Assembly (NCBI RefSeq): GCF_005871085.1
Contig: NZ_VAUP01000007.1
Coordinates: forward strand, 1 to 64,000
DNA from: Xanthobacter autotrophicus
GTDB lineage: Bacteria > Pseudomonadota > Alphaproteobacteria > Rhizobiales > Xanthobacteraceae
Direction: 5' to 3'
DNA: 64,000 nucleotides
Under the pieces are notes generated by a model that worked only from the letters and a program-made list of their open reading frames with translations, did no database searches and was not told the origin of the DNA. This document shows, in pieces, positions 1 to 19,261 of this stretch (positions are counted from its first letter, which is position 1; the number at the start of each line of letters is the position of its first letter). A program made the translations under genes and the position numbers.

Positions 1-114
1 ACCTACGCCGACATCGTCGATGCCGCCTGCGAGGCTTGGCGCAGTCTCACCGAAAACCCAGAAACCATCACATCCATCGGCAGCAGCCAATGGGCGCACA
101 TCGGTCATTCATAA
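1..114 (+). mobile_element. IS630-family transposase, C-terminal end (cut by window edge)
   Basis: The first 37 codons, open from base 1 to a TAA at 112-114, read as the last part of an IS630/Tc1-type DDE transposase. The signature is a stretch like YADIVDAACEAW followed by ETITSIGSSQWAHIG, which matches the conserved end of this family (recognised from memory, not by search). The catalytic domain lies outside the window. It implies an insertion sequence at the left border of the island. The terminal inverted repeat could not be identified in the bases after the stop. Confidence 0.65.
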
Positions 115-271
115 GGGCCGTTGGTATTAGTCATTGAAAAATGATGATGAAAAACTCTGGAAGATTACGTTAGCTTACGCCGATGAAGCGGGAAGGTGTA
201 CCCGGCAGGACGGACAATAAGTAAAAATACTTGTTAAATATCAAATACATATGTTTGATGATTTTTTATAG

Positions 272-295
272 ATACCAGCAAAAATACCAGCAAAT
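272..295. repeat. 12-bp tandem repeat, possible recombinase arm-type site
   Basis: Two adjacent copies, ATACCAGCAAAA and ATACCAGCAAAT, lie in an AT-rich non-coding stretch (115-367) between the transposase end and the first island gene. A related copy, CTACCAACAAAT (19054-19065), sits between the integrase gene and the tRNA at the other end of the island. Tyrosine recombinases of the DUF4102 type often have short direct repeats near both attachment sites. That role is inferred here. Nothing else recognisable was seen in 115-367. Confidence 0.35.
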
Positions 296-367
296 CGCGA
301 CGTTGGCCCCTGTTTGGCACCTTTCGGAATTTGCCGGGATCAGGCGGGATTGGGTGGGACGCGACCG

Positions 368-910
368 TTAGGCCGCCTCTCGCCGCCCCGGCACCCACAC
401 CCCCACGATGCGCCCCACCAGTTTCTCGGCGGCGTGCTCGGTGGTGAAGGGGCCTTCACTGGTGCCGACACAGCCCGTGCGCAGCGCGGCGGCGTACCCC
501 TCCCGCGTGCCCGGCGGGATCCAGTGGCAGGCGGTCCAGCACACGACCGGCACCGCGCCCTCTTCCGGCCGGAGCACCATGCACCCGTCCGGGCGCTGGA
601 ATTCTCTCCGGCCGCGCATCTGGCAGATGCGATAGACGAAGCCGCATTCCGTGTTCGGAGACGTGTAGGACATCAGGAACAGCTCGCCCTCGGCCGGTTG
701 ATGGTCGGCCAGGTCCACCACCGCGAATTCGCCGCGCCGCAGGTGCGGATAGAAGGCGTCGTCCGGGACGGGAAACGTCATGTGCCCGGCCGGCAGCGTC
801 GGGAACATCATCAGGGCGCGCAGTTCGGGCTGGTGCTCGAAGGGGATGGCGCGGGCTTTCGGGGCAGGCCGGCCGGCAGAGGTGCGGCGGGAGGGGCTGC
901 GCTCAGACAT
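368..910 (-). CDS. Hypothetical protein with an S24/LexA-like central segment
   Basis: Encodes 180 aa. The start at 910 is preferred because its ATG overlaps the stop of the upstream gene in an ATGTCTGA junction. The same type of junction joins the next pair, so 1815 to 368 looks like one translationally coupled transcript. The middle (PVPDDAFYPHLRRGEFAVVD) resembles the beta-barrel of LexA/CI-type S24 proteins around the 'DDSM' motif. I do not see the catalytic serine in its usual place, so an active peptidase is doubtful. There is no signal peptide or membrane segment. It is an island gene of unknown function. Confidence 0.6.
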   Translation of the reverse strand: MSERSPSRRTSAGRPAPKARAIPFEHQPELRALMMFPTLPAGHMTFPVPDDAFYPHLRRGEFAVVDLADHQPAEGELFLMSYTSPNTECGFVYRICQMRGRREFQRPDGCMVLRPEEGAVPVVCWTACHWIPPGTREGYAAALRTGCVGTSEGPFTTEHAAEKLVGRIVGVWVPGRREAA

Positions 911-1433
911 GGGCCGCCACCTTCGCCATGCGCTCCACCTCGCGGACAAGCTGAAGGAAACAGCCTTCCTGCCAATCGATCTGATCGGGCGGCAGGTCGA
1001 AACTCAGGCTGAAATGGCAATCGTAGGCCGTCGCACGCACCTTCACCGCGAGGCCCGCGATGGTCCGGGCCGGAATGGACCGGATCACGCTGGTGATGGC
1101 ATCCAGCTTGTCGAACTGATCGCTCGCTTGCGAGACGGCTTCCTTGGCCCCGACTTCCTCATGCAGCGCAGTCAGGGCGTCCCATCCTCTGGTGCCGCGA
1201 CGCTCCTTCTCGGCCTCGAAGACGGAGTTGAGGCGGTCTTCCTCATTTTTCAGGCTGGCGAGGGTGACGTGCTCGCGCTCGAATTCAGCGCCCAGGCGCA
1301 GCAGCTCAGCGTCGGGGTGTTCTCCGGCCTCCGCCTTCGGGAGGATGGCCACCGGCACCGCGAGGGCCGCGACGGTGCCGAGGGCTCCGGAGGCCTTGAG
1401 AAGGGAGCGGCGGGTGGCGGTGCGCTCACGCAT
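903..1433 (-). CDS. Small protein with twin-arginine-like signal, function unknown
   Basis: Encodes 176 aa. The N-terminus begins with Arg-rich residues, then RRSLLKASGALGTVAALAVP and an Ala-rich stretch ending in an AEA-type cleavage site, which looks like a Tat or Sec signal peptide of about 36 residues. The rest is charged and helical with possible coiled coil (EFEREHVTLASLKNEEDRL). Its start overlaps the stop of the upstream gene by 8 nt and its stop overlaps the next start by 8 nt. An exported protein inside a phage-like island is unusual. I recognise no family. Confidence 0.6.
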   Translation of the reverse strand: MRERTATRRSLLKASGALGTVAALAVPVAILPKAEAGEHPDAELLRLGAEFEREHVTLASLKNEEDRLNSVFEAEKERRGTRGWDALTALHEEVGAKEAVSQASDQFDKLDAITSVIRSIPARTIAGLAVKVRATAYDCHFSLSFDLPPDQIDWQEGCFLQLVREVERMAKVAAHV

Positions 1434-1815
1434 GGGTTGCCTCCTCAGCGCTTGAAGAGGCGATGATCCGGGCCGCCGCCATGGCGTATTGATTCACGCC
1501 CCGGACAAAGCCGGCGTGCACACCGCTCCACCTCTGCCCGGCTACGGCATGGTCGATCATGTCGCGAATTACGCAGGGCAGCAGCGTCGAATGCCCCACG
1601 GTGGGATGCGCGCCGATGAATGCGAGGAACTCGTCCGCCAGGCGCTCTCCGGTCTCCAGGTCGGCGCCGTAGTGGCCGGTCGGGCTCACCACCCAATGGT
1701 CGATCCCGCTGCCTCGCGGCTTGCGCAGCGCCATGAACGAAAGAGCGGCGGCGTAGTGCGGGACTTTGGGGGCAGGCAAGGGGGCGGCGTTTGCCGCCGC
1801 GGTGGGCTTCGGCAT
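1426..1815 (-). CDS. Hypothetical island protein
   Basis: Encodes 129 aa from the ATG at 1815, chosen because a GGAG sequence lies 7 nt upstream; the ATG 75 nt farther out has no such site. Residues 1-20 are Ala/Pro-rich. The rest contains short helical segments (ADEFLAFIGAHPTVGH, GVNQYAMAAARIIA). It has no membrane segment or known motif. It is the first gene of a three-gene coupled leftward operon and is divergent from the XRE regulator, which probably controls it through the shared 90-bp region. Function is unknown. Confidence 0.6.
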   Translation of the reverse strand: MPKPTAAANAAPLPAPKVPHYAAALSFMALRKPRGSGIDHWVVSPTGHYGADLETGERLADEFLAFIGAHPTVGHSTLLPCVIRDMIDHAVAGQRWSGVHAGFVRGVNQYAMAAARIIASSSAEEATHA

Positions 1816-1848
1816 TGGGTTTGCTCCATTGATCGGAAACGCGTTAAC

Positions 1849-1865
1849 TGATATGAAACAGATCA
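1849..1865. promoter_or_regulatory. Imperfect inverted repeat between divergent genes, candidate operator
   Basis: TGATATG-aaa-CAGATCA, with one mismatch between the 7-bp arms, is centred in the roughly 90-bp space between the leftward gene starting at 1815 and the XRE regulator starting at 1906. Divergent XRE regulators usually bind such a site to control both directions. The site is visible in the sequence; its function is inferred. Confidence 0.35.
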
Positions 1866-1905
1866 TGTGGATGATTTGAGCGAATGTCAATCAGGAGATA
1901 GGAAA

Positions 1906-2145
1906 TTGATCACTGGCGCTCAAATCCGGGCCGCGAGAGGCCTCATCCGGTGGAGCGCCGACGCGCTCGCCGAAAGCTCCAAGCTTGGTGTAGCCACAGT
2001 CCGCAGGGCTGAAAGTGTTGATGGCGTTCCGACAATCACCGAGGCAAACTTGGCCGCCATCCGTGCCGCCCTGGAAGCTGCCGGCGTGCTCTTCATCGAG
2101 CAAAATGGTAATGGTCCGGGCGTGCGCCTGAAGGATCGGAAATGA
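1906..2145 (+). CDS. XRE-family HTH transcriptional regulator
   Basis: Encodes a small helix-turn-helix protein of about 79 aa. From the start it reads ITGAQIRAARGLIRWSADAL, then a typical XRE recognition region (KLGVATVRRAES) and the common alphaproteobacterial tail AALEAAGVLFIEQNGNGPGV. I chose the TTG at 1906 because AGGAGA (1893-1898) is spaced 7 nt from it and homologs start at this point; the ATG at 1867 is the alternative. The stop overlaps the next ATG (ATGA). It likely represses the divergent operon and its own module, keeping the left part of the island quiet. Confidence 0.8.
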   Translation: MITGAQIRAARGLIRWSADALAESSKLGVATVRRAESVDGVPTITEANLAAIRAALEAAGVLFIEQNGNGPGVRLKDRK

Positions 2146-2348
2146 CGGACGAGCCAGACGGCCAGACGCCGGCCACGCCCTATCACCCCGAGGAGATGAG
2201 GGCGACGTGGGACCTGAAAGTCGGCAAGAGCATCTCCCTGCAGGGTACGGCCCGCTGGACGCCTGCCGGCGTCGTGACGGCGGGGATTGCCGCCTCGGCC
2301 GTGCTGCTCTCGATTGCCGCCCTGGTTCGGGCGACGCGGCGGTCGTGA
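2142..2348 (+). CDS. Small single-span membrane protein
   Basis: Encodes 68 aa and is coupled to the regulator by an ATGA overlap. The N-terminal 40 residues are polar. A hydrophobic helix follows at about residues 43-62 (GVVTAGIAASAVLLSIAALV) and ends in a basic RATRRS tail, which fits a single-pass inner membrane protein with a cytoplasmic C-terminus. Its stop overlaps the next ATG in a TGATG. Family and function are not recognised. Position in the regulatory module of a mobile element suggests an accessory or exclusion role, but that is only a guess. Confidence 0.5.
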   Translation: MTDEPDGQTPATPYHPEEMRATWDLKVGKSISLQGTARWTPAGVVTAGIAASAVLLSIAALVRATRRS

Positions 2349-2431
2349 TGCACGTCCTCGAAACCGCCGGCGTCATCTTCGTGGCGGAGAACGGCGAGGG
2401 GCTTGGCGTGAGGCTCAAGAAGCATCTGTGA
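2348..2431 (+). pseudogene. Remnant of a second XRE regulator (C-terminal tail only)
   Basis: The 27 codons read MHVLETAGVIFVAENGEGLG followed by VRLKKHL. This parallels the C-terminus of the intact regulator 200 bp upstream (AALEAAGVLFIEQNGNGPGV then RLKDRK). The HTH part is absent, so this is probably the relic of a duplicated or recombined regulator gene. A short expressed peptide, coupled by TGATG to the gene before it, cannot be excluded. Confidence 0.5.
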
Positions 2432-2447
2432 TCCCAAAGGTTCGACC

Positions 2448-2837
2448 ATGACGAAGCGCATCCCACGCCTGGACGAAGTCACGGACACGATGCCCCTGCG
2501 GCTCACCGTCGCCGCTGCCCTCGCATTCCCGGATGGGAGCATGGGCGCGAGCGGCCTACGCCGGGAGGCGGCGAGGGGCCGGCTTGCCGTTGAGCGTATT
2601 GCGGGCAAGGATTACACCACCCTGCGCGCAATCGAGGAGATGAGGGAGCAATGCCGCGTCCAACCAAAGGCGCCCGCTTGTGGCTCCGCCCAGCCAGGCG
2701 CGACGCGGCGGGAAAGCTCACGCACGCAGCGGCATGGGTCATCCTCGACGGTGGACGACAGCATTCCGCTGGCGTCGGCCCTGATGATCGCGAGGGGGCT
2801 GAAAGAGCGCTCGCCGACTACTAAGCGCCGATCCTGA
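2448..2837 (+). CDS. Excisionase-like / phage-associated small protein
   Basis: Encodes 129 aa. Residues 15-70 (for example LRREAARGRLAVERIAGKDY followed by TTLRAIEEMREQC) match a small DNA-binding protein that, as I recall it, sits just upstream of integrase genes in rhizobial islands. It has a MerR/excisionase-like helix-turn-wing. The C-terminal 50 residues are low complexity (Ser/Thr/Arg rich) and probably disordered. It lies between the regulator and two further small genes in what looks like an 'xis-int' neighbourhood. A role in excision is plausible but not shown. Confidence 0.6.
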   Translation: MTKRIPRLDEVTDTMPLRLTVAAALAFPDGSMGASGLRREAARGRLAVERIAGKDYTTLRAIEEMREQCRVQPKAPACGSAQPGATRRESSRTQRHGSSSTVDDSIPLASALMIARGLKERSPTTKRRS

Positions 2838-2858
2838 GACCCGAGCGGAGAAGCAATC

Positions 2859-3038
2859 ATGAGCCGCCGTGCCGCTCGCTTCACCCAGGCAGACCTCGCC
2901 CGCGTCTTTGCCGCCGCGAAGCGCACAGGGATGGCCGTCCGCATCGATCTGGTGAACGGCGTGGCCGAGGTCATTCCATATGAGCGCTTGTCGATTCCTT
3001 GCGAGGAGCCGAAACCCAAGCGCATCCCGATCCTGTAG
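2859..3038 (+). CDS. Small conserved hypothetical (59 aa), integrase-neighbour type
   Basis: Reads MSRRAARFTQADLARVFAAA, then KRTGMAVRIDLVNGVAEVIP, and ends in a Pro/Lys-rich tail. The ATG at 2859 has a GGAG 8 nt upstream. I recall similar 50-70 aa proteins from rhizobial mobile elements, where they precede an HTH gene and an integrase. No catalytic motif is seen. The N-terminal helix (FTQADLARVFAAAKR) and the following strand-rich part suggest a small folded domain. Function is unknown. Confidence 0.6.
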   Translation: MSRRAARFTQADLARVFAAAKRTGMAVRIDLVNGVAEVIPYERLSIPCEEPKPKRIPIL

Positions 3039-3057
3039 GCAGGCGAGCGAAACCACC

Positions 3058-3342
3058 ATGGCCCGCGACAAGGACACCTCTGGTCCGACCATCGAGCCGC
3101 GCTGCCTGACGCAGCAGCAGGCCGCGGCATACTGCGGCCTTACTTCCAGCGGGTTCGCGGCTTGGTGCCGGCAGGGCATCGTTCCTGGCCCGATCCCTGG
3201 CACCAAAAGGTGGGATCGCCACGCACTCGATGCTGCCCTCGACAAGGCCAGTGGCCTGCGTCACGCTGAGGTTGAGCCAGATGACCCTTGGGCGGAATGG
3301 GAGCGCCAGCAAAATGCGGCAGAACCTGCCAGGGCTCGCTAG
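3058..3342 (+). CDS. HTH (excisionase-type) DNA-binding protein
   Basis: Encodes 94 aa from the ATG at 3058; the in-frame ATG at 2980 would overlap the previous gene fully and is rejected. Residues 15-60 (CLTQQQAAAYCGLTSSGFAA, then WCRQGIVPGPIPGTKRWDRH) form a MerR/HTH_17-like fold used by excisionases and AlpA-type regulators. The last 20 residues are acidic then basic. The integrase-like stub at 3314 begins inside its end. That overlap is typical of HTH-integrase pairs and suggests it once sat in front of a full integrase. Confidence 0.65.
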   Translation: MARDKDTSGPTIEPRCLTQQQAAAYCGLTSSGFAAWCRQGIVPGPIPGTKRWDRHALDAALDKASGLRHAEVEPDDPWAEWERQQNAAEPARAR

Positions 3343-3391
3343 CGCCACCAAGACGCTCGTAGACGATCATGGTAAGGACAAGCCGCTCTAG
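3314..3391 (+). pseudogene. Probable N-terminal stub of a truncated integrase
   Basis: A 25-codon frame overlapping the HTH gene by 29 nt reads MRQNLPGLASATKTLVD and then breaks into DDHGKDKPL and a stop. Many alphaproteobacterial integrases begin with a similar 'NLPG...V.K.LADG' segment just after such an HTH gene. The rest of the integrase is absent; 100 bp later the AAA/TOPRIM cassette begins. The match is short and from memory, so confidence is modest. Confidence 0.4.
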
Positions 3392-3490
3392 CATGGGGAG
3401 GCAACTTTTGCCCTACCTTAGCGTTGGTCGTCGCCAAAAATCTCGACACAGCATCGCAGCGCCGCTAAGGAATGCCAGATATACCGAGGT

Positions 3491-4738
3491 ATGGATGTGC
3501 TGAAAAAGCTGAGAATAGAGCGTTTCAAGTCGATCTACGAACAGGAGATCGAATTCGGGAGCGTTAACCTTCTTGTTGGCCCAAATGGCTCTGGCAAATC
3601 GAACTTGCTGGAAGCTCTTGGCGTTTTATCTGCAGCCCTATCGTCAGGTTTAGAGTCAACCACACTCGATATTAAGGGCGTCAGGCTTTCGCTTCCTCAC
3701 ATTTTTAAATCTGCATTCAAAAATCATGAACTTCCCAAGACTTTTCGTCTCGAGGCTCATTTTGAGCATGGCCGGTATGATTGCAGCATTCGGTCCGGCA
3801 TTAATAGCCAGTTCCTAGAGTTCGCAACTGAGGCCCTATATGACGGTGATGCTCAAGTATTTGGGAGGAGCGGTCATGGAACAAGGCTCCATTCCGTAGC
3901 TAAAGACGTGCCAAATTTCGACAAAAGCCTCGTGCCAAGCACCAGAAGCGTTTGGAGCGTAATCGAGCCCTTAGTGCGCATTTCGGCCGAACTGCGCGCC
4001 GAGCTCGATGAGTTTTCGAAGTTTGCGATTTATGCACCCCAAACTGCTGTCATGCGTGGCTTGGCCATCGACCAGCGGGTCGTAGAGCCCTTGGGCTTAA
4101 CGGGATCTGGCTTGGCTACGGCGTTGGCGACGACAGAGCGACGCGACCCGATAAAGTTCAGAAATTTGATGAAAATAGTTTGGGAACCGGGCTGGGCAGA
4201 CATGATCCGCCCAGGGGCTTTTGACCCTCAAGTGGTTCCCTCACAGGTCCGATCCGAGGGCACGGTTCTATATATTCGCGATAAATTTATGAAGGGGGGC
4301 CGCAATTTACTTAGTGCATTTGATGCGAGCGAGGGCACTTTGTACCTAATATTTGTCGCAACTTTCTTAGCGCACAATTTAACGCCACAAGTATTTTCGC
4401 TCGATAATATTGATGGGACCTTGAATCCAAAACTGGTTAGGCGAGTTTCACGGCATTTGATTGATGCGATAATATCGGCCGAAGCTTCAGACAAGAAGCA
4501 GGCTTTCATGACATCGCACCACCCATCTTCTCTAGATAGCTTTGACATTTTCGATTCACATCAATGCATCTTTGTTTGCAGCCGCAGCTCCGAAAATTCG
4601 GCAAATGGTGGCGGGCAGACCACATTCCGAAAGCTTTTGCCGCCGAAAGATATGACCAAAGAGGATTGGACTCTAAAGCATGGAGCGAGAAACCTTTCTG
4701 AACTGATGCTTAACGATCGAATCCCGGGCGCGCTCTAA
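3491..4738 (+). CDS. AAA-family (OLD/RecF-like) ATPase, probable anti-phage system component
   Basis: Encodes 415 aa. Residues 1-25 (LKKLRIERFKSI) are the usual entry strand of SMC/RecF-like ATPases. Walker A is GPNGSGKS (30-37). A signature-like FDASEGTL lies near 277-284, the Walker B position reads VFSLDNID (301-308) and a histidine loop TSHHPSSLD is at 341-349. The usual DE of Walker B is DN here. It is followed with zero gap by a TOPRIM-like gene, so the two form an operon resembling OLD- or PARIS-type defence pairs. Base composition is clearly more AT-rich than in its neighbours, which implies recent transfer. Defence function is inferred. Confidence 0.75.
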   Translation: MDVLKKLRIERFKSIYEQEIEFGSVNLLVGPNGSGKSNLLEALGVLSAALSSGLESTTLDIKGVRLSLPHIFKSAFKNHELPKTFRLEAHFEHGRYDCSIRSGINSQFLEFATEALYDGDAQVFGRSGHGTRLHSVAKDVPNFDKSLVPSTRSVWSVIEPLVRISAELRAELDEFSKFAIYAPQTAVMRGLAIDQRVVEPLGLTGSGLATALATTERRDPIKFRNLMKIVWEPGWADMIRPGAFDPQVVPSQVRSEGTVLYIRDKFMKGGRNLLSAFDASEGTLYLIFVATFLAHNLTPQVFSLDNIDGTLNPKLVRRVSRHLIDAIISAEASDKKQAFMTSHHPSSLDSFDIFDSHQCIFVCSRSSENSANGGGQTTFRKLLPPKDMTKEDWTLKHGARNLSELMLNDRIPGAL

Positions 4739-5386
4739 ATGATAAATATTGGATTGGTCGCCGAAGGCACGCATGATTTCATCATGCTAAAGCCATTCAT
4801 CACCCATGAGGTATCCTCCCGATTTGGCAAGCGCGTTCAGTTTCGGCAACTTCAGCCCGCCCCCGACTCCACTGGCAATATGACATCTGGAGGGTGGGCG
4901 CGCGTTGTCGGTTGGTGTCAAAGTAATTCCGGACCTAGATTGGACACCTTTTTCACACCGCTGTTCTCGAATGACGCACCATGCGACATAATTATTTTAC
5001 ACTTGGACGGGGATGCCCTGGAGGTGGCGAGTCAACATCACTCATTTACTGTTCCATCTGCCATTTTGGATGCTAAACAGCGCGTATCTATTTTGACATC
5101 TATACTTGAACACTTCCTCTCTCCGACGACAGAGCAGAGGGGGAAAATCGCGATGGCCCTGCCCGTGCAGCACACTGAGTCATGGGTCCTCTCAGCCGAA
5201 AACTTGCCCGGAGATCCAGAAACTATCGATGCCAAAAAGGAGCTGAGAAAAGTATTTCCAAAGCCCCACAGACGCCTTTCGGACCATTATCAGAAGAGGG
5301 TGTCAGGTTTAAATGGGGCGATTCCCAAAGAAACCTGTGTCAGCTATAGGTGCTTTGTTGATGAAATATCTAATATCCGCATATGA
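4739..5386 (+). CDS. TOPRIM-like partner protein of the AAA ATPase
   Basis: Encodes 215 aa, starting directly after the ATPase stop codon. The N-terminus has a hydrophobic strand, then AEGTHD (8-13). A second strand ends in ILHLDGDA (86-93). The Glu and the DxD pair are the metal-binding signature of TOPRIM nucleases. The C-terminal half has QHTESWVLSAENLPG and a helical Lys/Arg-rich part, seen in small proteins encoded beside such ATPases. It likely supplies the nuclease that the ATPase controls. It could instead be a DUF4276/DUF4435-like relative; I cannot tell which without a profile search. Composition is AT-rich like its partner. Confidence 0.65.
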   Translation: MINIGLVAEGTHDFIMLKPFITHEVSSRFGKRVQFRQLQPAPDSTGNMTSGGWARVVGWCQSNSGPRLDTFFTPLFSNDAPCDIIILHLDGDALEVASQHHSFTVPSAILDAKQRVSILTSILEHFLSPTTEQRGKIAMALPVQHTESWVLSAENLPGDPETIDAKKELRKVFPKPHRRLSDHYQKRVSGLNGAIPKETCVSYRCFVDEISNIRI

Positions 5387-5670
5387 TTTGATATTGCGGC
5401 AGCTTATTTCCAACTACGTTTCATGGACATGGCGCCGGACGCGGTAGTATTACGTTTTTCCGAACTATCATGATCGCCCGGTCCAGTTCGTTGCAGCTTA
5501 CGGCTGCGGCGCGGCGCCTACCGCGGCCCAGGTTTCACACATGGCGGGTAGCCGGACGGTGGACCGCAGTCGCCCAGCTCATCCCCTCAATGCACCACCT
5601 CGCCCTCGCCGAACGTGAGGTCGAGTGCCGCGGCGAGCTGGCGAATGCGGCGGTCCAGTTCCTTGTCGCC

Positions 5671-6102
5671 TCAGCCGGCCCCAGCACCTTCCGGCCCATA
5701 TTCCGCTGCCCATTCCTCTTCGGACATAGGCTTGTCGGTAATTGTGTGGGTGACGCTCACGCTCTCGCTCTTGTCCACCACGAGGCCGTTTAGCTTCGCG
5801 ACGTCCATCCATGCGGCGCGGGCCACCGAGAGGCCAGGCGCTCCGCCTTCCTCCTCGGCTGCCTCCGCGATGCGCTTCAGGTTCTCGGTCACGTCTGCCA
5901 GGGTGATTTCCGCGCGCATGGCGCCACCTCTCTGAAGGCCGGTGATCCGGGCGCGCACGTCCGGATCGTTTGCCAGCCGATGGGCGTTCTGGCGGTTCTC
6001 ACGAAAGCCGGCCTCGGTGTAGGCTTCCGCCACGGTGCGCCCTTCGGCCACGAGCTGGGCGAACCGCTCGCGGCGGCCGTTGCGAAGTGGGGGCGTGGTC
6101 AC
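5671..6102 (-). CDS. Phage terminase small subunit-like protein
   Basis: Encodes 143 aa. Residues 8-50 (RRERFAQLVAEGRTVAEAYT, then EAGFRENRQNAHRLANDPDV) form the helix-turn-helix seen in many small terminases. A helical segment with ITLADVTENLKRIAEAA follows. Its start overlaps the stop of the giant upstream gene by 4 nt (6099-6102), so it ends the leftward operon. No large terminase follows. After the TGA at 5671-5673 the frame stays open for 27 sensible codons to 5587, so the protein may be truncated. The alternative is a generic phage HTH protein. Confidence 0.6.
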   Translation of the reverse strand: MTTPPLRNGRRERFAQLVAEGRTVAEAYTEAGFRENRQNAHRLANDPDVRARITGLQRGGAMRAEITLADVTENLKRIAEAAEEEGGAPGLSVARAAWMDVAKLNGLVVDKSESVSVTHTITDKPMSEEEWAAEYGPEGAGAG

Positions 6103-9100
6103 GGCCCCACCCCCAGCAGGCGCCCGGCCAGTCCGCCGGGCGTGGGAGGCGGCAGAAAGCCGGCCGCTGGCCGCGTCGGCGGGCGAGGAGCACTACCCCG
6201 CTGCGGCTGGGGCGCCTTGTTCTCTCCGTCCGATCCAGGCAGCAGCCCGGCCCGCATGTAGACCCGGGCAAGGCTGATCGCCTGCCCGCGCGTCGGCGCG
6301 TCAGGCACCTTCGCCAGCAGCGCGCGCGCCCGCTCCGGGTTCAACAGCGCGTCCTTCACGATGTCGTCCACGCTCGCGAGGCCGGCCTGTCGCATGGCCT
6401 CGATGACGCGGCCGAGGTGGGCACCACCACCGGCGCCTGCCGCAGCCCCGAGGCCGCCGCTGGCCATGCTGCCGGCCGCAGCACCGGCGCTGGCGAGCGC
6501 GCCTGGCGAAAGCAGCCGCGAGAGCCAGGATTGCGCGCCTCCGGCCTGCCCCACTGCCAGCGCGTCCTGCACCGTGTTGGACTGGCCCGGCAGCTTCACG
6601 GCCGCTACCGAGCGGTTGGACCGCTTCAGGTCGGCCGCGATGGCGTGCAGCGTCATGATCTCGGGGCCGGACAGCACCGTCTTGAGCGCCGGCACCGACT
6701 GCCGCAGGAATTGCTGGAAGGCGTCCGAGCGCATCATGTCCGCGCCGGAGGTTGCGCCCTCGGTGTTCCCGATGAAGCGCAGGTTGACGTAGTCGGCCAC
6801 GGCCTTGCGCAGGCCCTGCCGCGCTTCCTCGCTGCCGGCTGTTTCACGAGCAAGGCGGCCCATCTGCTGCACGGCGTCCTGCCGGCTGAAGATGCCGCCG
6901 ATGGTCCGCGTCACGTCCGCCGGGTCTTCCACCCTCAGCAGGCGGGCGACGGCGCCCTGTTCGAAGGCGTCAAGCTGGGCTTTCCGCTCGGCTGCGAGGC
7001 GGGCCATGGTCTCGGACGCCTGCACCGGGTCGGCCAGCATGCGGTCCACCTCGGGCATGGCCCGGAGCGCGTCGGCATGCTTCTGGCGCCACGCCTGCAC
7101 CTTGGCCGGGTCCAGCGTGCCGTCAAGCGGGCTTTCCGCCGCCTTGCGCAGGGTGGAGATGGCATAGTCCCGGATCTGCGGCAGGGCCTCAGGCGCAGCA
7201 TTGCGCAGCGCCTGCATGGCCTCGAAGCCGCGCGGGCCGGGTAGGAAGAAGCGGCCGGGGACGACAGAGGCTTCCGTCTGGAACGGGCCGGATGCGCCCG
7301 AGCGCCGGGTGACGGCGCCCACCCGCCCGGCGTCGAAGGTCTGCGCCCGCTGCTTTGTCGCCGCGGATGCCGCCTTCAGTCGGCCGGCGGCTCCTTCGTC
7401 GAAGTTGGGGGCGAGGTTGTCGGGGAAGAGGCCAGGGCTTTGTACTCTCTCACCGCCCGGAGCTTGTCCAGATCGCCCTCGGCCTTGCCCTGCCGCTCCA
7501 GATCCTGGAGAAAAAGCGGTCGATCCGGCGCGGGCATCTGATCCAGCACCTTCTGCAAAGCTCTGCCCCATTTGAGCTTCGGAGGATCGCCGGTCATACC
7601 AGTTGTCAGCCCACCCCTGGATATGCGCCGCCATGGTGTCCTCTTCGGACATCGCGCCGGCCTGCACCGCCTGCTGTTCCATTGCAGCCTTGGACGCCAC
7701 CGCGCCTTCAATATCGCGTTCGATGGCGCCGCGCAGCTGCGACAGCCGAGCATATACACGGGTCTGGCCGTTCGTCACCATCTCCTGGCGCATGGCGTCC
7801 GAAACCCGGCTGCGGAGCGCCGTCATCTCGCGGAACGGCACCACATCAGGGTAACGCAGGGCTGTTGCGATAGCGGCCCGCTCTTCGCCGGCCAGCGGCG
7901 CGGCCGACTTCTCCAGCCCCTTCACGATGGTCCGTGCCGTGTCGCGCACGCCGGTCGCCGGCAGGTTCAGGTCGTTGCCGGGGTCCACGGCCTTCCACAG
8001 GGCGCGCTCGCGCTCCTTCGCCGCGCCACGGGCGTCCATGATCTGCTGCCGGATGCCGGCGCCGTACGCCTCGGGCGCGCCCTCTCCGCCCAGCCGGCCC
8101 GCGGCCTCGCGCGCCGCGTTCGTGGCGCCGGTGAGCGCATGCCCCGTGGCTTCATCCAGCGCGGCGAGGTTCTGGCGCAGCACGCCCACCACCTGCTCCG
8201 GCGCCCCCTTGGGCTGGATGCCTTCCAGCGCCCCGACGCGGGCCGCGTTCTGGTCGGCGCGGCGCTGCATGAACTCGGCGGGGTTCTGGCTGGCGCTGGC
8301 CCGCTCAAGGCCGCCAAGACCCATGTCTCCGGTCAACTGGAACGTGGTGGGTTCGGATCCCGCCACCAGATTGCGCGGAACGGCGCCGGGCTCGGTGGGC
8401 AGGCCCACCGTCTTCGAGGCCGCAGCCGCGTCCAGCGCATCGCGCACCGCCGCCGGGTCCGTGGCCGCCTGGCGCAGCCGCGCGCCGGCCGCCGCCTCCT
8501 GCGTCGCCGGATCGGACAGGCGAAAGTCGCGCCACGCCTGCGGCAGCTGGGCAGCGCCCCGGCCCGCCGCGATGGCGCCGGCACCAGCCGCGCCGCCCAC
8601 GAGGTTGCCCGCCGTCTCGGCAAGGGGCTTCCACGGCTCGGGCACCACCTGGCCGGCCATCTGTCCGCCGACACCGGCGGCCGCGCCCACCGCCGCATTG
8701 GTGGCGACATCGCCCACCGAGGCCGAGCGGCCGAAGATGGAGCCGAGCGTGTTCATGGCGCCTTTGCCGACGACGCCGGCCCGGTTGAGTGCGCCAAGCG
8801 CCGCTTCCGGCGCGACCATGCCGCCAACGCCGGCACCGGCCGCGCGGGCCAGCTTATCCGGGATGGTCGCGGCCTGCACCTTGCTCGGATCATTCACGCC
8901 CACCGCTTCACCGGCGCCGGCGAGCCACCGGCTGGAGCCGGGAAGGTTGGTGCGCGCCTGAGGCAGCTCTGCGCCGGTCACCGCATTGATGCCCTGCACG
9001 GCCTTGTTGGTGATCCACGTCGCGGCGTCCACCGGCGCGCCGAGGGTCGAATAGATGGCGTCGTTGAGGCCGGCCGTGGCGTTGTTCCAGGGGCCGGCCG

Positions 9101-9929
9101 GCGCGGGCTGGGCGTCCTGTTGGGGCTCATCGAACTGATCGAAGATGTTCGGCGCGGCTCCCTGCGACGGGGCGGGGGAATCGAACTGATCGAAGATATT
9201 CGGCTGTGCCCGCTGCACCGGGGGCGCCGGCATGGACTGCACTACCCCATCCTGCCAGGGGCTGGCCTGTCCGCCGAACTGCGGGCGAGGCGGGATCGGA
9301 TCAGCGCCGGGAACGGGGCGAATTGCACTCTCGATGGCCTGCACTCCTGCCGTCTTCGGCGGTTGCGCCGTATAGGCCATGGGATCGCCCTGGCGCATCC
9401 GCTGAACCCATGCCCGATCTGGCCCCTCGATACCGAAGCGCTCGCCCCCATAGGCCGAAACCTGCGGCCCACCATTGAAGCCGACGGTGCCCGAGGCGTT
9501 TCCGGTAGCGAACTGGCCAACGTTCGATCCGCCGAGAGCGTCTCCGATCATGCCCGAATACCGGCCATTTACGGACGGGTCAGAGGCGTATCGCTCGGCA
9601 CGCTGGTGGGTGACAGGCGGGAAGTATCCGCCGGTGAGCGTCTGCGCCAACGTCTGCCCGCGCGACGCTGCCCGGTTCATGATGGTCTCGATGAAGGCTT
9701 GCTGTGCCTGCGGCCCCTGTCCTCCGACTTCCGCCTGCGTCACGGCGGCGAGGCGGGAGGAAACCGCCGGGTCCTGAAGCTCACGGGAGAAGACCGCCCG
9801 CGCCTGAGCAAGGGGCGGAACCGGTTCGGGGCGTTGAGGCGTCGGGCCGAGAAGGCGCGTCGCGTAGCTCGGCCCGGCTTCGGGGAGGGGAATGAGGTCG
9901 TTGAACTGATCGAAGATGTTCTGCATCAC
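6099..9929 (-). CDS. Giant phage internal-virion-type protein with N-terminal cell-wall hydrolase-like domain
   Basis: Encodes 1276 aa. Residues about 45-185 contain AEVGGQGPQAQQAFIETIMN, THQRAERYASDP and FATGNASG, similar to the lysozyme/SleB-like part of large podovirus ejection proteins. The motif NIFDQF occurs at residue 4 and twice near residues 243-265. A glycine/alanine-rich segment (about 340-470) may insert in membranes, and the C-terminal 700 residues are mainly helical. Length and layout fit proteins injected with phage DNA that open the cell wall. It is translationally coupled to the genes on both sides (ATGA overlaps). Assignment is by architecture, not by a database hit. Confidence 0.55.
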   Translation of the reverse strand: MMQNIFDQFNDLIPLPEAGPSYATRLLGPTPQRPEPVPPLAQARAVFSRELQDPAVSSRLAAVTQAEVGGQGPQAQQAFIETIMNRAASRGQTLAQTLTGGYFPPVTHQRAERYASDPSVNGRYSGMIGDALGGSNVGQFATGNASGTVGFNGGPQVSAYGGERFGIEGPDRAWVQRMRQGDPMAYTAQPPKTAGVQAIESAIRPVPGADPIPPRPQFGGQASPWQDGVVQSMPAPPVQRAQPNIFDQFDSPAPSQGAAPNIFDQFDEPQQDAQPAPAGPWNNATAGLNDAIYSTLGAPVDAATWITNKAVQGINAVTGAELPQARTNLPGSSRWLAGAGEAVGVNDPSKVQAATIPDKLARAAGAGVGGMVAPEAALGALNRAGVVGKGAMNTLGSIFGRSASVGDVATNAAVGAAAGVGGQMAGQVVPEPWKPLAETAGNLVGGAAGAGAIAAGRGAAQLPQAWRDFRLSDPATQEAAAGARLRQAATDPAAVRDALDAAAASKTVGLPTEPGAVPRNLVAGSEPTTFQLTGDMGLGGLERASASQNPAEFMQRRADQNAARVGALEGIQPKGAPEQVVGVLRQNLAALDEATGHALTGATNAAREAAGRLGGEGAPEAYGAGIRQQIMDARGAAKERERALWKAVDPGNDLNLPATGVRDTARTIVKGLEKSAAPLAGEERAAIATALRYPDVVPFREMTALRSRVSDAMRQEMVTNGQTRVYARLSQLRGAIERDIEGAVASKAAMEQQAVQAGAMSEEDTMAAHIQGWADNWYDRRSSEAQMGQSFAEGAGSDARAGSTAFSPGSGAAGQGRGRSGQAPGGERVQSPGLFPDNLAPNFDEGAAGRLKAASAATKQRAQTFDAGRVGAVTRRSGASGPFQTEASVVPGRFFLPGPRGFEAMQALRNAAPEALPQIRDYAISTLRKAAESPLDGTLDPAKVQAWRQKHADALRAMPEVDRMLADPVQASETMARLAAERKAQLDAFEQGAVARLLRVEDPADVTRTIGGIFSRQDAVQQMGRLARETAGSEEARQGLRKAVADYVNLRFIGNTEGATSGADMMRSDAFQQFLRQSVPALKTVLSGPEIMTLHAIAADLKRSNRSVAAVKLPGQSNTVQDALAVGQAGGAQSWLSRLLSPGALASAGAAAGSMASGGLGAAAGAGGGAHLGRVIEAMRQAGLASVDDIVKDALLNPERARALLAKVPDAPTRGQAISLARVYMRAGLLPGSDGENKAPQPQRGSAPRPPTRPAAGFLPPPTPGGLAGRLLGVGP

Positions 9930-11092
9930 TGCCCTCCAAGGACGCGAGCGGCAGAGCCGGCGCCGTACTTGCGGTCGAAGTCCGCGGAGAGGCCGGGGTT
10001 GCTACGCAGGAGGCTTGCCGCCGCGGGAGGGATAGAAGCCGACTGCGCGGGCCCACCCTGTCCGCCACCGGAGGGAGACGCGCCCGGCGCCTGAGCGCCA
10101 CCCGGAGCCCCGAAGTTCTGGCCCGCACCCGGCACCATCTCCCCCTGCGCCCGGAGCTTGGCGAGGCCCGTCGTGAGCGCGTCCTTGAACTCGCCGAGCG
10201 CCGCCTTGTAGTCGTCCACACTCTGCGCGGCGCTGAGGCGGGCCATCGCCTGTTCGGCCTTCAGCCCTTCCACCTCCGTGATGGCGCCGCCACCCTTCAG
10301 CATCCCATAACCCTGGAGGAACACCCCACCGCGAAGCTGATCCATCTTGGCCTGCACACGGGCCGCGTCAGCCGAGACGTTCGGCATGCGGGACGCCATC
10401 GGCCCGAGCATGTCCGGCAACTTGGGGTCCTTCGCCAGATCCTCGATATGCTGGCTGATCTGAGCCGCCATCCCTTCGGCTCCAGGCAACTGGGCTTGTG
10501 CCTGGCCCGCCGCCTTCCCGACTTCCCCGGCGGCCGCCTTGCCCGCCACGTTCTTCGGAATGGTGGCGATGGGCTGGTGGGTGATCTGGTCCGTCAGGAC
10601 GAAGTGCGTGCCGGCATCGCTCACGATGGGCTTGTTGGACAGGGTGACGCCCGGCGGCGTCTGTGCCTGCCGTACCGTGCCGTTGCTGCCCAACTGCAGC
10701 ATCACGGGGTTGCCTTGCGCGTCCACCCCGAATTGCGGCGTGAGCCCGTAGGTCGGGTGCCCGTCCTTGTCCAGCCGCTGGCGCATGATGTCCAGCTTCT
10801 GCCGCTCGAAGGAGTTCATCGTCTCCTGCTGCCCGAGCTTCATGAAGGTGCCGGCGCCCTCCAGGTCGCCATTCCCGAGCAATCGGGCGGCCATCGACTG
10901 GCTGTTGGGCGGGGTTCCCGGCGGAAGTGCCGCCATTTCCTCGCCCAGTGCCTTGCGACCGGTGAGGATGTCCTGTTCCCGGCGCGAGGCGCGGCCTTGG
11001 TCGAAGCTGCCCAATAGCCTGTCGGCATAGGATGCAATCTGGCCGCCCTGGTTGACCTGAACAGGAATTGCGAACGAAGGAACGTCCCACAT
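9926..11092 (-). CDS. Phage structural / DNA-ejection-type protein
   Basis: Encodes 388 aa. It starts MWDVPSFAIPVQVNQGGQIA and has a helical N-terminal region with FEKL-like amphipathic repeats (TFMKLGQQETMNSFERQKLD). Near residues 250-300 it has the segment GMLKGGGAITEVEGLKAEQA, a pattern I associate with phage proteins made next to large internal virion proteins. The C-terminus is Gly/Pro/Ala-rich and disordered, ending in a short folded tail. It is coupled by a 4-nt overlap to the 1276-aa protein, suggesting they act together in the particle. No enzyme motif is seen. Confidence 0.5.
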   Translation of the reverse strand: MWDVPSFAIPVQVNQGGQIASYADRLLGSFDQGRASRREQDILTGRKALGEEMAALPPGTPPNSQSMAARLLGNGDLEGAGTFMKLGQQETMNSFERQKLDIMRQRLDKDGHPTYGLTPQFGVDAQGNPVMLQLGSNGTVRQAQTPPGVTLSNKPIVSDAGTHFVLTDQITHQPIATIPKNVAGKAAAGEVGKAAGQAQAQLPGAEGMAAQISQHIEDLAKDPKLPDMLGPMASRMPNVSADAARVQAKMDQLRGGVFLQGYGMLKGGGAITEVEGLKAEQAMARLSAAQSVDDYKAALGEFKDALTTGLAKLRAQGEMVPGAGQNFGAPGGAQAPGASPSGGGQGGPAQSASIPPAAASLLRSNPGLSADFDRKYGAGSAARVLGGQ

Positions 11093-11095
11093 CGG

Positions 11096-13537: not shown

Positions 13538-15652
13538 TCATGATTCCCACCCCGCACCGACCACTACGAACTCGCGCATCATCCGTTTGACGTCCGGCCG
13601 GCGCTCTTTGCCGAGGGCCTTGGAGGCGAACCACATGGCCAGCGCCCGCTTCACCTTCTCCTTGTCGGCCTTGTCGTCGACGTTGAGGCCCAACACGTCG
13701 GCGACGACGTGGCCGATCCAGTTCCCCGCTTGCACATCCACCCGGTAATCCGGGTTCGCCTTCACGGCCGCCACGACCTTCTCGATATGCTCGGCGCGGA
13801 CATTCTGGAGCGCGTCCGGCATCTCCCACGCCGTGACCACGCCCACGAAGTCCTCGGTGGAGATGAGGCCGTAGTCCTCGCCGTTGCCGAGCCCGACAGA
13901 GGCCAGCCGGCGCCACACCGCGCGTTCCATCGGCGGGGACATGTTGGCCTTGCCGTTGTCTACCCGGAAGTGGAGCCGGCGGTGCTCGGGTTCGATCCCG
14001 GCCCGGTCGGCGTCGTCCTGCGACATGACGTTGAGCACCCGGGCGGAGCGCACGGCGCCGATGAGCGCCGATGCGCCGCGGGCGTCCTCCACCGTGTAGG
14101 TGTGTTCGCCCATGGCCTTGCGGACATGGTGGACCAGCTCGATTGCGCAGTTGCACCGCTCGGCGATGCGGGCCCATTCCTTCGCCACCCGGTCCACCGC
14201 GCCGTTGTCGTTCTCGCCCACGCTGTGGGACGACACGAACGGATCGACGATGAAGGTGCCGATGTCGTTGCCACGAATGGCCTCTTCGACCTCCTCCACC
14301 ATCGGCCGGGCGACGACGACGCGCTCGCCCACCTTCTCCGCGATGACGATAGGCACCTCGCGTCCGCTGTCGATGAACAGCCGGTTCTCGATATCGGCGG
14401 GCTCGATCCCATAATGCAGGCAGGCGCCAGCCAGCCGCCGGTCCAGCTCTTCCTTCGGATCCTCGCCGTTCCAGTACCAGACGTTCGTCTGCTCCTGCAC
14501 CAGCACGTCCAGCAGGGGCCGCCCCGTGGAGATGGCCAGTGCCTCCGCGATGATGAGCGAGGACTTGCCGACGCCGCCCGGGGCTACGGTTCCGGTCACG
14601 AAGCGGCGGACATAGTGCTTGTCGTAGATCCAGCGCCGCGGCGGGATGGTCTTCGGATCGACCCATTGCCAGGGCGTCGCAGAGATGCGCCGGCGGGGGG
14701 CCTCGGGCTGGGCAGGAACTCCCCCGTCAGTGCCGGTGGCCCGCATCTCCTGCTGCCTGTCCGGAACCTCGCGGGGCTTCAGCCGTCCGGCCGCGATCCC
14801 GCTGTCGATGGTGGCGCACGTCGCGCGCTCGCCATCGTCGGCGATGAGGCCACAGGATGCCGCCGCGCTCATGAGCGAGCCGCGCGCCGTGTCTTCATCC
14901 ACCATGCCGGCGCCCACCAGCTGCCCGAGGCTGAATGCGGCCGTGTTGAGCCGGTTGTTGCGCTCGCCGCGCCCGCTCTGCGCCACCGCCCAGCACTCGC
15001 CGGCAATGGCCGTCTGCACGTAGCGATCCGGCGGGGCCTGGCGGGAAGCGAAGTCCACGATTTTGGGGCTCTGCCGCGCTTCGGGCGCTGGCTCGGTCAA
15101 CAGTTCATAGAGCCAGTCCCCAGCCTCGGCGAAATGGAAGAAATCCATCGGATCTTCGATTTCGTAGCTGCGGCCGTCTGTCAGCCGGGAGCCGGCGGCG
15201 ATGACATAGCCGCCTTCGCCGCGCACGTTGATGCCGTGGATGCCGCGCGCCCGCAGGCCGCGTTCCGTGTTCGTCACCGGCCGGTCTTCGCGCCAGCGGA
15301 ACAGCAGGTGCTTGCCGCCGCTGGGCGTGAGGTGGGCATGGGTACGGATCGGCGGATGCTGGCGCGCGATGTTCTCCCATGCCTTGAGGCCGTCCGCGTC
15401 GCCCGGTTCCTTCGCCACGTCGGGGTCGATGGCCCAAACTTCATTCTCGCGTCCCATGGGCACGCCGATCAGGGCGTCAGGCCATTGCGTCCACCAAGCG
15501 CGGAGCTGGGCGGCGTCCCGGCTTGCGGCCTTGAAGCCGGCGGAGATGAGGGGGCGCTTGGAAATGCCGCGCTCGGGCGAGGGGTTGCAGGGGAACACCT
15601 TCCACCCGCGCCGGGCATAGTCGAGAGCCAGGTCGAGAGGCGTCATGTTCAT
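13538..15652 (-). CDS. Bifunctional DNA primase-polymerase / RepA-like helicase
   Basis: Encodes 704 aa. I start at the ATG at 15652, which overlaps the upstream stop (ATGA); the in-frame extension to 15820 is out of keeping with the family. The N-terminal 190 residues are a Prim-Pol domain (ALDYARRGWKVFPC near 10, metal-site AIDPD 74-78, SGGKHLLF 111-118). The second half is a RecA/RepA-type ATPase with Walker A APGGVGKS (357-364), WYWNGEDP (392-399) and Walker B FIVDP (467-471). It probably drives replication of the island after excision. The gene is full-length in appearance. Confidence 0.85.
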   Translation of the reverse strand: MNMTPLDLALDYARRGWKVFPCNPSPERGISKRPLISAGFKAASRDAAQLRAWWTQWPDALIGVPMGRENEVWAIDPDVAKEPGDADGLKAWENIARQHPPIRTHAHLTPSGGKHLLFRWREDRPVTNTERGLRARGIHGINVRGEGGYVIAAGSRLTDGRSYEIEDPMDFFHFAEAGDWLYELLTEPAPEARQSPKIVDFASRQAPPDRYVQTAIAGECWAVAQSGRGERNNRLNTAAFSLGQLVGAGMVDEDTARGSLMSAAASCGLIADDGERATCATIDSGIAAGRLKPREVPDRQQEMRATGTDGGVPAQPEAPRRRISATPWQWVDPKTIPPRRWIYDKHYVRRFVTGTVAPGGVGKSSLIIAEALAISTGRPLLDVLVQEQTNVWYWNGEDPKEELDRRLAGACLHYGIEPADIENRLFIDSGREVPIVIAEKVGERVVVARPMVEEVEEAIRGNDIGTFIVDPFVSSHSVGENDNGAVDRVAKEWARIAERCNCAIELVHHVRKAMGEHTYTVEDARGASALIGAVRSARVLNVMSQDDADRAGIEPEHRRLHFRVDNGKANMSPPMERAVWRRLASVGLGNGEDYGLISTEDFVGVVTAWEMPDALQNVRAEHIEKVVAAVKANPDYRVDVQAGNWIGHVVADVLGLNVDDKADKEKVKRALAMWFASKALGKERRPDVKRMMREFVVVGAGWES

Positions 15653-15915
15653 CCCCAATCGTCCGTGGTGTCGTGGGAAGCGCCCTGCAGCTCGGCGTCC
15701 GGCACCGGCTCTTCGCCGGAGCCCAGGCGCTGCGCCAGCGCGCGGGCCTCGCGCTCGGTCGCGCAGGAGATGCGGCGGATCAGCCAGCCGTTGCTGGCGA
15801 GGCGCTGCACCACCCACCACGGGCCGCCATCATGTTCGACGGCGAAGGTCGTCTCGGCGCTGGCGTGTTCCCGTGAAAGGATCGCCGAAGGGGGGAAGCT
15901 GACGACGCGGCTCAT
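15649..15915 (-). CDS. Hypothetical island protein
   Basis: Encodes 88 aa and overlaps both neighbours by 4 nt, so it is translationally coupled between the 101-aa gene and the primase. The sequence has an N-terminal SFPPSAILSREHASAETTFA, an aromatic patch (GGPWWVVQRLASNGWLIRRI) and a helix with EREARALAQRL. It may be a small replication-accessory factor given its place directly before the primase. No known domain is recognised and there is no membrane or signal segment. Confidence 0.55.
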   Translation of the reverse strand: MSRVVSFPPSAILSREHASAETTFAVEHDGGPWWVVQRLASNGWLIRRISCATEREARALAQRLGSGEEPVPDAELQGASHDTTDDWG

Positions 15916-17805: not shown

Positions 17806-19011
17806 CTACGCCCCTGTATTGGAAGCGCCTCGCCTCAGGCTATCCAGGAAATCCGCCCAGTCGCACATCATCTGTCGGCGTCCCGTGAGGTATTGGGCGC
17901 TGTTATAGGCGCCGCGGACCTCGTTGCGTTCGTCATGCGCGAGCTGCCTCTCGATCCAATCCGGATGGTAGCCAGCCTCGTTCAGCCAGGTGGACGCCAC
18001 GCCGCGAAAGCCGTGGACTGTCGCGCGGCCGTGGTAGCCCATGCGGTACATGGCGAAGAGCATGGTGTTGTTCGACATGAAACCCTCCTTGCCGGGGGAG
18101 GGGAAAAGCTGAGGGCTGCGTCCAGCGAGGGGGCGAAGTTCCTGCAGCACGGCGACGGCCTGCTGCGAAAGTGGCACGAGGTGCTCGAACCTCATTTTCA
18201 TGCGTTCGGGCGGGATGCGCCACAGCGGCTCGGGGCCGTCCAGCCCTTCGAACTCGGGCCAGCGCGCGGCGCGTAGCTCGGTGGTGCGTACGAACGTGAG
18301 GACCATCAGCTTCAGGGCGAGCTTCGTCATGTGCTCGCCGTCGTAGGCGTCCAGGGCCTTGAGGAAGTCCGGCAGATCCTCGCGGGGCAGGGCGCGATGG
18401 TGCTTCTGCCTGCCCGGCGATTTCAGAGCGCCGCGCAGGTCCTGCGTGGGGTCCCGTTTGGCCCGGCCGGTCGCGATGGCGAACCGGAAGATCTGGCCGA
18501 CCACCTGCATCTCGCGCTTGGCAAGCTCGATGGCGCCGCGAGCCTCTACCTTGCGAATGACCTCAAGGAGTTCTGGCGGCTCGATATCGGCGATTGGGCG
18601 ATGTCCCAAGGTAGGATAGATGTCGGCCTCCAGCCGGCTCAAGAGCCGATCTGAGTATGAGGGAACCCATCCCGGCAGCTTCGCGGCGAACCACTCCTGC
18701 GCGACGACCTCGAATATCCGGCTGGAGTGAAGGCGAGCTGCCCGCTTTTCGGCCCTTCGTGCCTCGCTGGGATCGATCCGCGCTGCCAACTGCTCCTTTG
18801 CAGTCTCGCGGCTCTTCCTGGCGTCGGCGAGCGACGTGATGGGATAGGTGCCCAGAGCGAGCGTCTTCTGCTTTCCAGCAAAGCGATAATTGAGGCGCCA
18901 GTAGCGTGCCCCATCGGGGTTCACGAGTAGATACAGGCCGCCACCGTCCGCGAGCTTGTACGGCTTATCGCGCCCCTTCGCACTTCTGGCGGCAGTGTCG
19001 GTGAGGGGCAT
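17806..19011 (-). CDS. Tyrosine-type integrase (DUF4102 / P4-like)
   Basis: Encodes 401 aa. The N-terminal arm-binding DUF4102 domain (about 5-90) includes ADGGGLYLLVNPDGARYWRL and YRFAGKQKTLALGTYP. The catalytic domain has Arg242 (TFVRTTELR), His333-x-x-Arg336 (HGFRG), His359 (LAHDERNEVRG) and the nucleophile Tyr369 (GAYNSAQY), so the site is complete. It lies 174 bp from the 3' end of a tRNA-Ile gene, the usual target of this family, which fits insertion of the island into that tRNA. It catalyses integration and, with an AlpA-like partner, excision. Confidence 0.9.
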   Translation of the reverse strand: MPLTDTAARSAKGRDKPYKLADGGGLYLLVNPDGARYWRLNYRFAGKQKTLALGTYPITSLADARKSRETAKEQLAARIDPSEARRAEKRAARLHSSRIFEVVAQEWFAAKLPGWVPSYSDRLLSRLEADIYPTLGHRPIADIEPPELLEVIRKVEARGAIELAKREMQVVGQIFRFAIATGRAKRDPTQDLRGALKSPGRQKHHRALPREDLPDFLKALDAYDGEHMTKLALKLMVLTFVRTTELRAARWPEFEGLDGPEPLWRIPPERMKMRFEHLVPLSQQAVAVLQELRPLAGRSPQLFPSPGKEGFMSNNTMLFAMYRMGYHGRATVHGFRGVASTWLNEAGYHPDWIERQLAHDERNEVRGAYNSAQYLTGRRQMMCDWADFLDSLRRGASNTGA

Positions 19012-19185: not shown

Positions 19186-19261
19186 TGGTGGGCCCGGCAG
19201 GACTCGAACCTGCAACCAGACCGTTATGAGCGGTCAGCTCTAACCATTGAGCTACAGGCCC
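19186..19261 (-). tRNA. tRNA-Ile2 (anticodon CAU, lysidine-modified type)
   Basis: A 76-nt cloverleaf on the minus strand. It starts GGGCCTG at 19261, and its acceptor partner CGGGCCC is followed by an A and an encoded CCA ending at 19186. The anticodon loop is CTCATAA in a GACCG/CGGTC stem. The loop and stem match the minor isoleucine tRNA whose C34 becomes lysidine, not initiator or elongator Met. The T-arm is GCAGGTTCGAGTCCTGC. The island lies directly downstream of its 3' end, so this gene is the probable attachment site. Confidence 0.93.

Follow-up and report, generated by a model that had tools for sequence, protein, structure and literature searches.

Pairs of an OLD-type ATPase and a nuclease are a recurring design of bacterial immunity, exemplified by Gabija, PARIS, retrons, and WonAB. 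OLD class 4 is defined by separate genes for the ATPase and the TOPRIM protein (PMC12796447, PMC10568477). AriA of PARIS sequesters AriB until a trigger arrives (PMC12409363), GajA of Gabija is described as held closed by ATP (PMC12796447), and WonAB requires both of its proteins and brings translation to a stop (PMC12137116). Whether ATP serves such pairs as a fuel or as a mere signal seems, in these sources, to be unsettled. The pair described here lies in the first 64,000 nucleotides of contig NZ_VAUP01000007.1 of Xanthobacter autotrophicus, a stretch that was analyzed as a whole and is called the window below. Gene A (3491..4738, plus strand) encodes a 415-residue ATPase and gene B (4739..5386, plus strand) a 215-residue TOPRIM-like protein. 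As the original prediction from the letters of this DNA had stated, the two open reading frames (ORFs) have no spacing: the TAA stop codon of A abuts the ATG of B, in the same frame. By its profile matches, the pair belongs to PDC-M31, a widespread and uncharacterized phage-defense candidate catalogued in PADLOC, because PDC-M31 provides the best profile for both proteins and because A is directly followed by B.

Judged by its profile relatives, protein A is an ATPase of the OLD/ABC type. It matches the PADLOC profile PDC-M31A with an E-value of 2.1e-79 and 265.5 bits, the match extending over residues 4-394 of the protein and positions 2-379 of the 395 in the profile. The next PADLOC matches are HEC-01A (2.8e-25) and AriA and AbiLi (both 1.1e-20). 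Pfam AAA_21 is matched with 69.6 bits (cut-off 27), and among the best 25 of 52 NCBIfam rows none exceeds its cut-off. The A profile has 42 matches in the PDB, including a 552-residue "AAA family ATPase" (9n69), Rad50, the OLD protein of retron Eco8, and OLD 6p74; PtuA is also among its relatives. A had originally been called an AAA ATPase, of which the second half stands and the first does not. The label "AAA+ ATPase" was rejected in favor of the ABC type, "AAA" being the label that Pfam uses.

All of the motifs named in the original prediction are present, namely GPNGSGKS, SLDNID, and the HH of SHH in A, and the glutamate of AEGTHD and the DxD of HLDGD in B. Their conservation was read across 95 distinct pairs, the window included, in which A has at least 300 residues, B has at least 180, and the two genes lie close together; all motif coordinates for A and B are on the plus strand. 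The Walker A motif (GPNGSGKS, residues 30-37; 3578..3601) contains a lysine, Lys36, that is conserved in all 93 rows reaching that position. A triplet resembling the ABC signature, S-E-G (residues 280-282; 4328..4336), is nearly invariant (93 of 95 rows keep E281 and all keep G282), and its role is assigned by analogy with ABC ATPases. The H-loop residue His343 (4517..4519) of SHH (residues 342-344) is histidine in 93 of 95 rows. The second histidine of the HH-type loop that had been pointed out is not a clade-wide feature, as the position holds histidine in five rows and asparagine in 88.

ABC ATPases carry their catalytic glutamate directly after the Walker B aspartate. Protein A has an asparagine at this position, within D305-N306-I307-D308 (4403..4414) of the SLDNID motif (residues 303-308). 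The replacement extends through the family, with asparagine in 83 rows, serine in 11, and glutamate in one of the 95, and the DN noticed originally is thereby a property of the clade (94 of 95 rows with asparagine or serine). Thinning the rows at 50% identity leaves 35 with asparagine, one with serine, and one with glutamate. The single row with glutamate, from locus L086, shows a normal EEPE motif and branches outside all the others. The patterns used to fetch the loci did not span this position.

The sister ATPases that are paired with DUF4276 proteins retain glutamate in 27 of 27 cases, these being the sufficiently long and similar ones of the 30 DUF4276 loci fetched. Among ATPases linked to DUF4435, which we take to be the effector family of AriB, D-E was read by eye in all five (three encoded by separate genes and two fused). 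On a tree of 122 rows, the step from glutamate to another residue requires one change, and a branch with an SH-aLRT value of 99 separates the 94 non-glutamate rows from the remainder; the tree was built by a quick method without bootstrap, the motif columns were kept in, and L086 and L003 have long branches. On these alignments, the canonical Walker B glutamate has been lost clade-wide.

Seven residues after D305, the D-loop position is occupied by N312 (4424..4426), with asparagine in 88 and histidine in seven of 95 rows; the spacing equals that between D299 and H306 of P2 OLD. The H306A change abolished the in vivo activity of P2 OLD (PMC7049728), and E300A abolished protection by WonA (PMC12137116). 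GajA is thought to have kept nucleotide binding and to have lost hydrolysis (PMC12796447).

Protein B is probably a TOPRIM-type protein close to DUF4276 and a putative nuclease. Its best PADLOC family is PDC-M31B (62.1 bits, 1.6e-17 and 1.2e-15); the match is partial, the best stretches being residues 1-93 and 3-159 of 215. All 77 B rows that were scanned, including that of the window, match this profile at E-values of 0.001 or below. The view that the partner does not obviously fit a named class is corrected by these matches (2.1e-79 for A and 1.6e-17 for B), and the relation to defense families that had been proposed is borne out by the PADLOC matches of both proteins. The TOPRIM assignment is likewise supported by the Pfam matches of the 77 rows at E-values of up to 1, with DUF4276 found in 27 (best single E-value 2.8e-7), RloB in 20 (2.4e-5), OLD-like_TOPRIM in eight (0.038), DUF3226 in six (2.9e-4), and Toprim in one (0.0058). 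In profile–profile comparisons, for which reversed controls scored at most 0.25%, the B family profile scored 94.5% against the DUF4276 profile (E-value 8e-8, 201 columns) and 0.1% against five DUF4435 proteins, including two that are fused to an ATPase. Some genomes of this phylum are rich in matches to DUF4276, which occur in 30 of 120 genomes, with up to seven per genome.

The putative metal site of B consists of E9-x3-D13 in AEGTHD (4763..4777) and D90-x-D92 in HLDGD (5006..5014), a layout that fits the spacing of the metal residues E398, E402, D453, and D455 of P2 OLD (PMC7049728). Of the 95 rows, all have D13 and D90, 94 have E9, and 84 have D92; the four residues occur together in 83. 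A further motif, E147-x-W149 (5177..5185), has an invariant tryptophan (95 of 95), with glutamate in 74 and aspartate in 15 rows at position 147. Nine of the twelve rows that deviate from the full set of four are from Bacteroidota and have alanine, glutamate, or asparagine at D92. The Bacteroidota rows with an altered DxD come from loci L061, L064, L065, L066, L069, L070, L075, L076, and L085.

The two genes form an old unit: 88 of the 90 loci fetched through A alone carry B next door, directly downstream within 300 bases and on the same strand. This set comprised loci in which A matched at an E-value below 1e-40, had at least 300 residues, and was followed by at least 400 bases; the two loci without an adjacent B are L037 and L088. 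Among the 88 downstream genes, 85 encode at least 180 residues, and the median gap between A and B is -4 bases. The sequence identities of A and B co-vary, with r = 0.875 over 4465 row pairs. The 95 pairs include 65 from 13 named phyla, 18 from IMG/VR contigs, one from a phage record, one from an unplaced bacterium, and that of the window; many come from metagenome bins, and individual taxonomic placements may be wrong.

The distribution of PDC-M31 is broad and sporadic. Searched as a single sequence among 385 genomes of the class, the B protein of the window was found in its own genome only, whereas the PDC-M31B profile matched 11 of the 398 phylum genomes scanned, one of which is that of the window, and none of 14 control genomes. 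The A profile yielded 80 loci on genome contigs, kept among 338 confirmed (among the matches listed), and 39 loci on virus contigs, about half of them short matches. One phage record matches A, and the same single record matches B; plasmid searches gave no match to B at E-values up to 0.01 and none to A at 1e-20. The nearest relative, among the matches listed, is from Mesorhizobium sp. ORS3359 (L015), with 65% identity in A and 35% in B; a tape-measure-like gene is located some 6 kb away from this pair.

In the window, the pair is carried by a prophage, with a terminase small subunit adjacent and an integrase at a tRNA gene; the mobile-element setting that was originally proposed is accordingly a prophage. 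The terminase small subunit is a convergent neighbor (5671..6102, minus strand; phrog_51, 1.2e-11; Pfam Terminase_2 at 1.2e-4, under its cut-off). Upstream of the pair lies a helix-turn-helix or excisionase-like phage regulator (2980..3342, plus strand; phrog_66, 3.4e-06). A full-length integrase (17806..19011, minus strand) matches Pfam Arm-DNA-bind_3, Phage_int_M, and Phage_integrase, all over their cut-offs, and adjoins a tRNA-Met gene found by ARAGORN (19186..19261, minus strand) that is the probable attachment site. The tRNA sequence tested for a second copy of this site has one occurrence in the whole genome. The first base of the window is also the first of the contig, so that the prophage is cut off on its left side. 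The cassette is AT-rich, as had been noted: its G+C content is 49.1% over 3491-5386, compared with 64.5% over 1-3400 and 67.3% over 5500-19000 (67-69% downstream).

The reading favored here, with a probability of roughly 0.55, is that the pair is a PDC-M31 cargo operon of a prophage, in which an OLD-type ABC ATPase acting as sensor or scaffold and a DUF4276-like TOPRIM nuclease acting as effector provide defense of the abortive-infection type. Membership in the PADLOC catalogue and the cargo position in a prophage both favor a role in defense. In the proposed mechanism, A would bind ATP as a dimer and hydrolyze it poorly because its canonical Walker B glutamate is replaced, and the ATP-bound form would keep B inactive or poised. 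The A–B complex would be altered by a phage trigger, which may be a phage protein, the case for AriA, or the loss of ATP that has been proposed for GajA. B would then use a two-metal TOPRIM site to cut nucleic acid (tRNA or DNA), so that the growth of the infected lysogen stops and the incoming phage is excluded. The working could resemble that of AriA, GajA, or WonAB, its clearest parallels.

A wider interpretation is more doubtful and is offered as a tentative extension. PDC-M31 may be an ancient, phylum-spanning immune family that lost canonical ATP hydrolysis once, permanently, and uses ATP binding as a fuse, forming an OLD-like class apart from PARIS and Gabija. The change of glutamate to asparagine or serine, usually together with asparagine at the D-loop position, would leave an ATP-bound clamp that holds back the DUF4276-type TOPRIM nuclease until a phage protein or the loss of ATP sets the nuclease free.

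Several observations weigh against the defense operon as proposed. B of the window has no match in Pfam, NCBIfam, or the PDB, DUF4276 and DUF4435 included, and the B profile reaches 21% against the OLD TOPRIM domain, over 25 columns that cover the first motif only. D92 is absent in 11 of 95 B rows, nine of them from Bacteroidota, indicating that the nuclease site is not universal. With respect to A, the D-loop position varies in the sisters as well (histidine in 22 and tyrosine in five of 27), and for this reason it is looser and less telling than the Walker B change. Hydrolysis may also survive the replacement of the glutamate, as Cran1, an OLD protein from archaea, was unaffected when either of its Walker B glutamates was changed to alanine (PMC12796447), and because of this result we only infer that A hydrolyzes ATP poorly. 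The literature search turned up no report of activity for a member of PDC-M31.

A scan of the neighborhoods of ten relatives also gave no clear excess of defense systems, in a sample that is small and against a control that is itself rich in defense genes. At a threshold of 1e-10, the 105 neighboring ORFs matched 114 PADLOC models and the 104 control ORFs matched 23; these tables count models rather than systems, and 25 of the 114 neighbor models are mostly type I restriction models matched by one protein each. ORFs above 700 residues were left out, and 18 of the 123 near ORFs, which were A, B, or ORFs that overlap B, were excluded manually. The controls came from the same genomes, and two of the 12 control stretches share contigs with the near loci. 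Among these 25 models, mad2 was matched by three neighboring ORFs and a IIG model by two; RtcR, mad5, and the type I restriction models were matched by one ORF each. Among the control ORFs, mad2 was matched by two, and type II methylase models, HEC-01A, HEC-01B, PDC-M72A, PDC-M68B, RtcR, LmuB, and others by one ORF each.

An alternative to the defense operon is a module resembling a toxin–antitoxin system or serving the maintenance of lysogeny, in which A restrains a toxic B, the pair mainly stabilizes the prophage, and any protection from phage is a by-product. Abutting genes on a prophage suit such a module, and Pfam describes AAA_21 as a "putative AbiEii toxin, Type IV TA system". For the analogous WonAB, however, a simple sequestration model has been excluded (PMC12137116), and PADLOC places the family among defense candidates; this alternative appears unlikely.

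It is similarly improbable that the pair is a PARIS system proper (OLD class 4), in which A would be a functional AriA that senses a phage protein with ordinary ATP hydrolysis and B an AriB-like tRNase. The two-gene layout of ATPase and TOPRIM protein is shared, and A does match PADLOC AriA at 1.1e-20, but the match to PDC-M31A is far stronger, B is unrelated to the five DUF4435 proteins compared, and the D-E found in five of five DUF4435-linked ATPases is absent in 94 of the 95 rows here. The PARIS interpretation is thus already weakened on membership. Two loci with PARIS-like pairs, L188 and L189, have a DEPE-bearing ATPase adjoining a DUF4435 protein.

Least probable of all is a phage or host housekeeping pair without a role in immunity (a DNA repair, recombination, or cell-cycle factor), for although A has a RecF/Rad50/SMC-like ATPase core, Cran1 has a cell-cycle function and apparently none in defense against viruses (PMC12796447), and the ten neighborhoods show no clear defense-system excess, the sporadic spread of B and the low G+C content of this prophage cargo speak against it.

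Further features of the prophage are more distant from the pair. Beyond the terminase gene, a 1276-residue ORF had no match at the limits used (Pfam and PHROG-type profiles). By profile match, a protein resembling one "released from the phage upon host infection" is encoded at 9926..11092, and a primase-polymerase plus AAA_25 protein at 13538..15820 (minus strand). Scans for repeats, promoters, and terminators found nothing that seemed to rise above chance. The possibility that other cargo occupies the same prophage site, as in a hotspot, was considered and dropped: the terminase query matched five of 249 genomes, the window's own included, and in the stretches from the four other genomes the terminase was the only one of 12 window proteins to match. 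When IMG/VR was scanned with the terminase, 52 loci were found, for the most part through short matches.

A 57-residue ORF (2651-2824, plus strand) has 61% and 51% identity to plasmid stretches of Methylobacterium and Bradyrhizobium, respectively, in which no feature is listed. It is perhaps the "integrase stub" that had been reported next to the cassette. Elsewhere in the genome of the window, a contig (G000:C27:218-2573) has three consecutive matches to the phage integrase family, as in tandem recombinase elements.

A large natural clade in which the canonical Walker B glutamate is replaced makes the question of whether ATP is fuel or signal testable against sisters that carry DEPE. Among generic "AAA family ATPase" annotations, members of the family can also be picked out by the motif D-[NS]-x-[DE] with LNP, combined with a DUF4276-like TOPRIM partner. 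The literature search found no paper naming PDC-M31 or DUF4276, and none naming HEC-01 together with PADLOC; wider searches led to papers on OLD, PARIS, Gabija, WonAB, IbfA, and BREX. For TOPRIM-linked OLD-ABC systems, PMC12839542 cites Krishnan et al. 2020, in which the clade may already be described.

Among the known systems, WonAB resembles the pair in combining an OLD-ABC ATPase with a separate nuclease in a prophage, where it acts by abortive infection (PMC12137116). It differs in its nuclease, which is of the PD-(D/E)xK type, a fold other than the TOPRIM fold proposed for B, and in the requirement for E300 of WonA, whose equivalent in A is taken from motif order, not from an alignment, to be the asparagine. 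OLD and Gabija (classes 1 and 2) share the OLD-type ATPase and the E-x3-D/E and DxD residues of the TOPRIM domain, and GajA provides a precedent for lost hydrolysis (PMC12796447); in these classes, ATPase and TOPRIM domain form one polypeptide, in contrast to the two genes here, and the profile of B reaches the OLD TOPRIM domain at 21% only.

Of the AbiL system, AbiLi is matched by A at 1.1e-20 and AbiLii by two of 77 B rows, and RloB is matched by 20 of 77 B rows at E-values of up to 1, but these matches are far weaker than those to PDC-M31. In PARIS (AriA/AriB), the ATPase and the TOPRIM protein are likewise encoded by separate adjacent genes; there, AriA sequesters AriB as a hexamer, and tRNA is cleaved once the trigger is sensed. 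The resemblance to OLD and PARIS systems that was originally suggested extends to this layout. It does not extend to PARIS identity, which was rejected because the DUF4435 effector is unrelated to B at the profile level (0.1%); the five DUF4435-linked ATPases also differ from A in carrying DE.

In HEC-01 and other DUF4276 pairs, an ABC ATPase adjoins a DUF4276-type protein; HEC-01B is, we infer, DUF4276. The likeness extends to the B family profile (94.5%), and the differences are that the sister ATPases have glutamate in 27 of 27 cases where the window has asparagine, and that B of the window does not itself match DUF4276. Closest of all is PDC-M31, for which PADLOC states no mechanism: it gives the best profile for both proteins of the window, with no difference seen and with its two genes in the same order.

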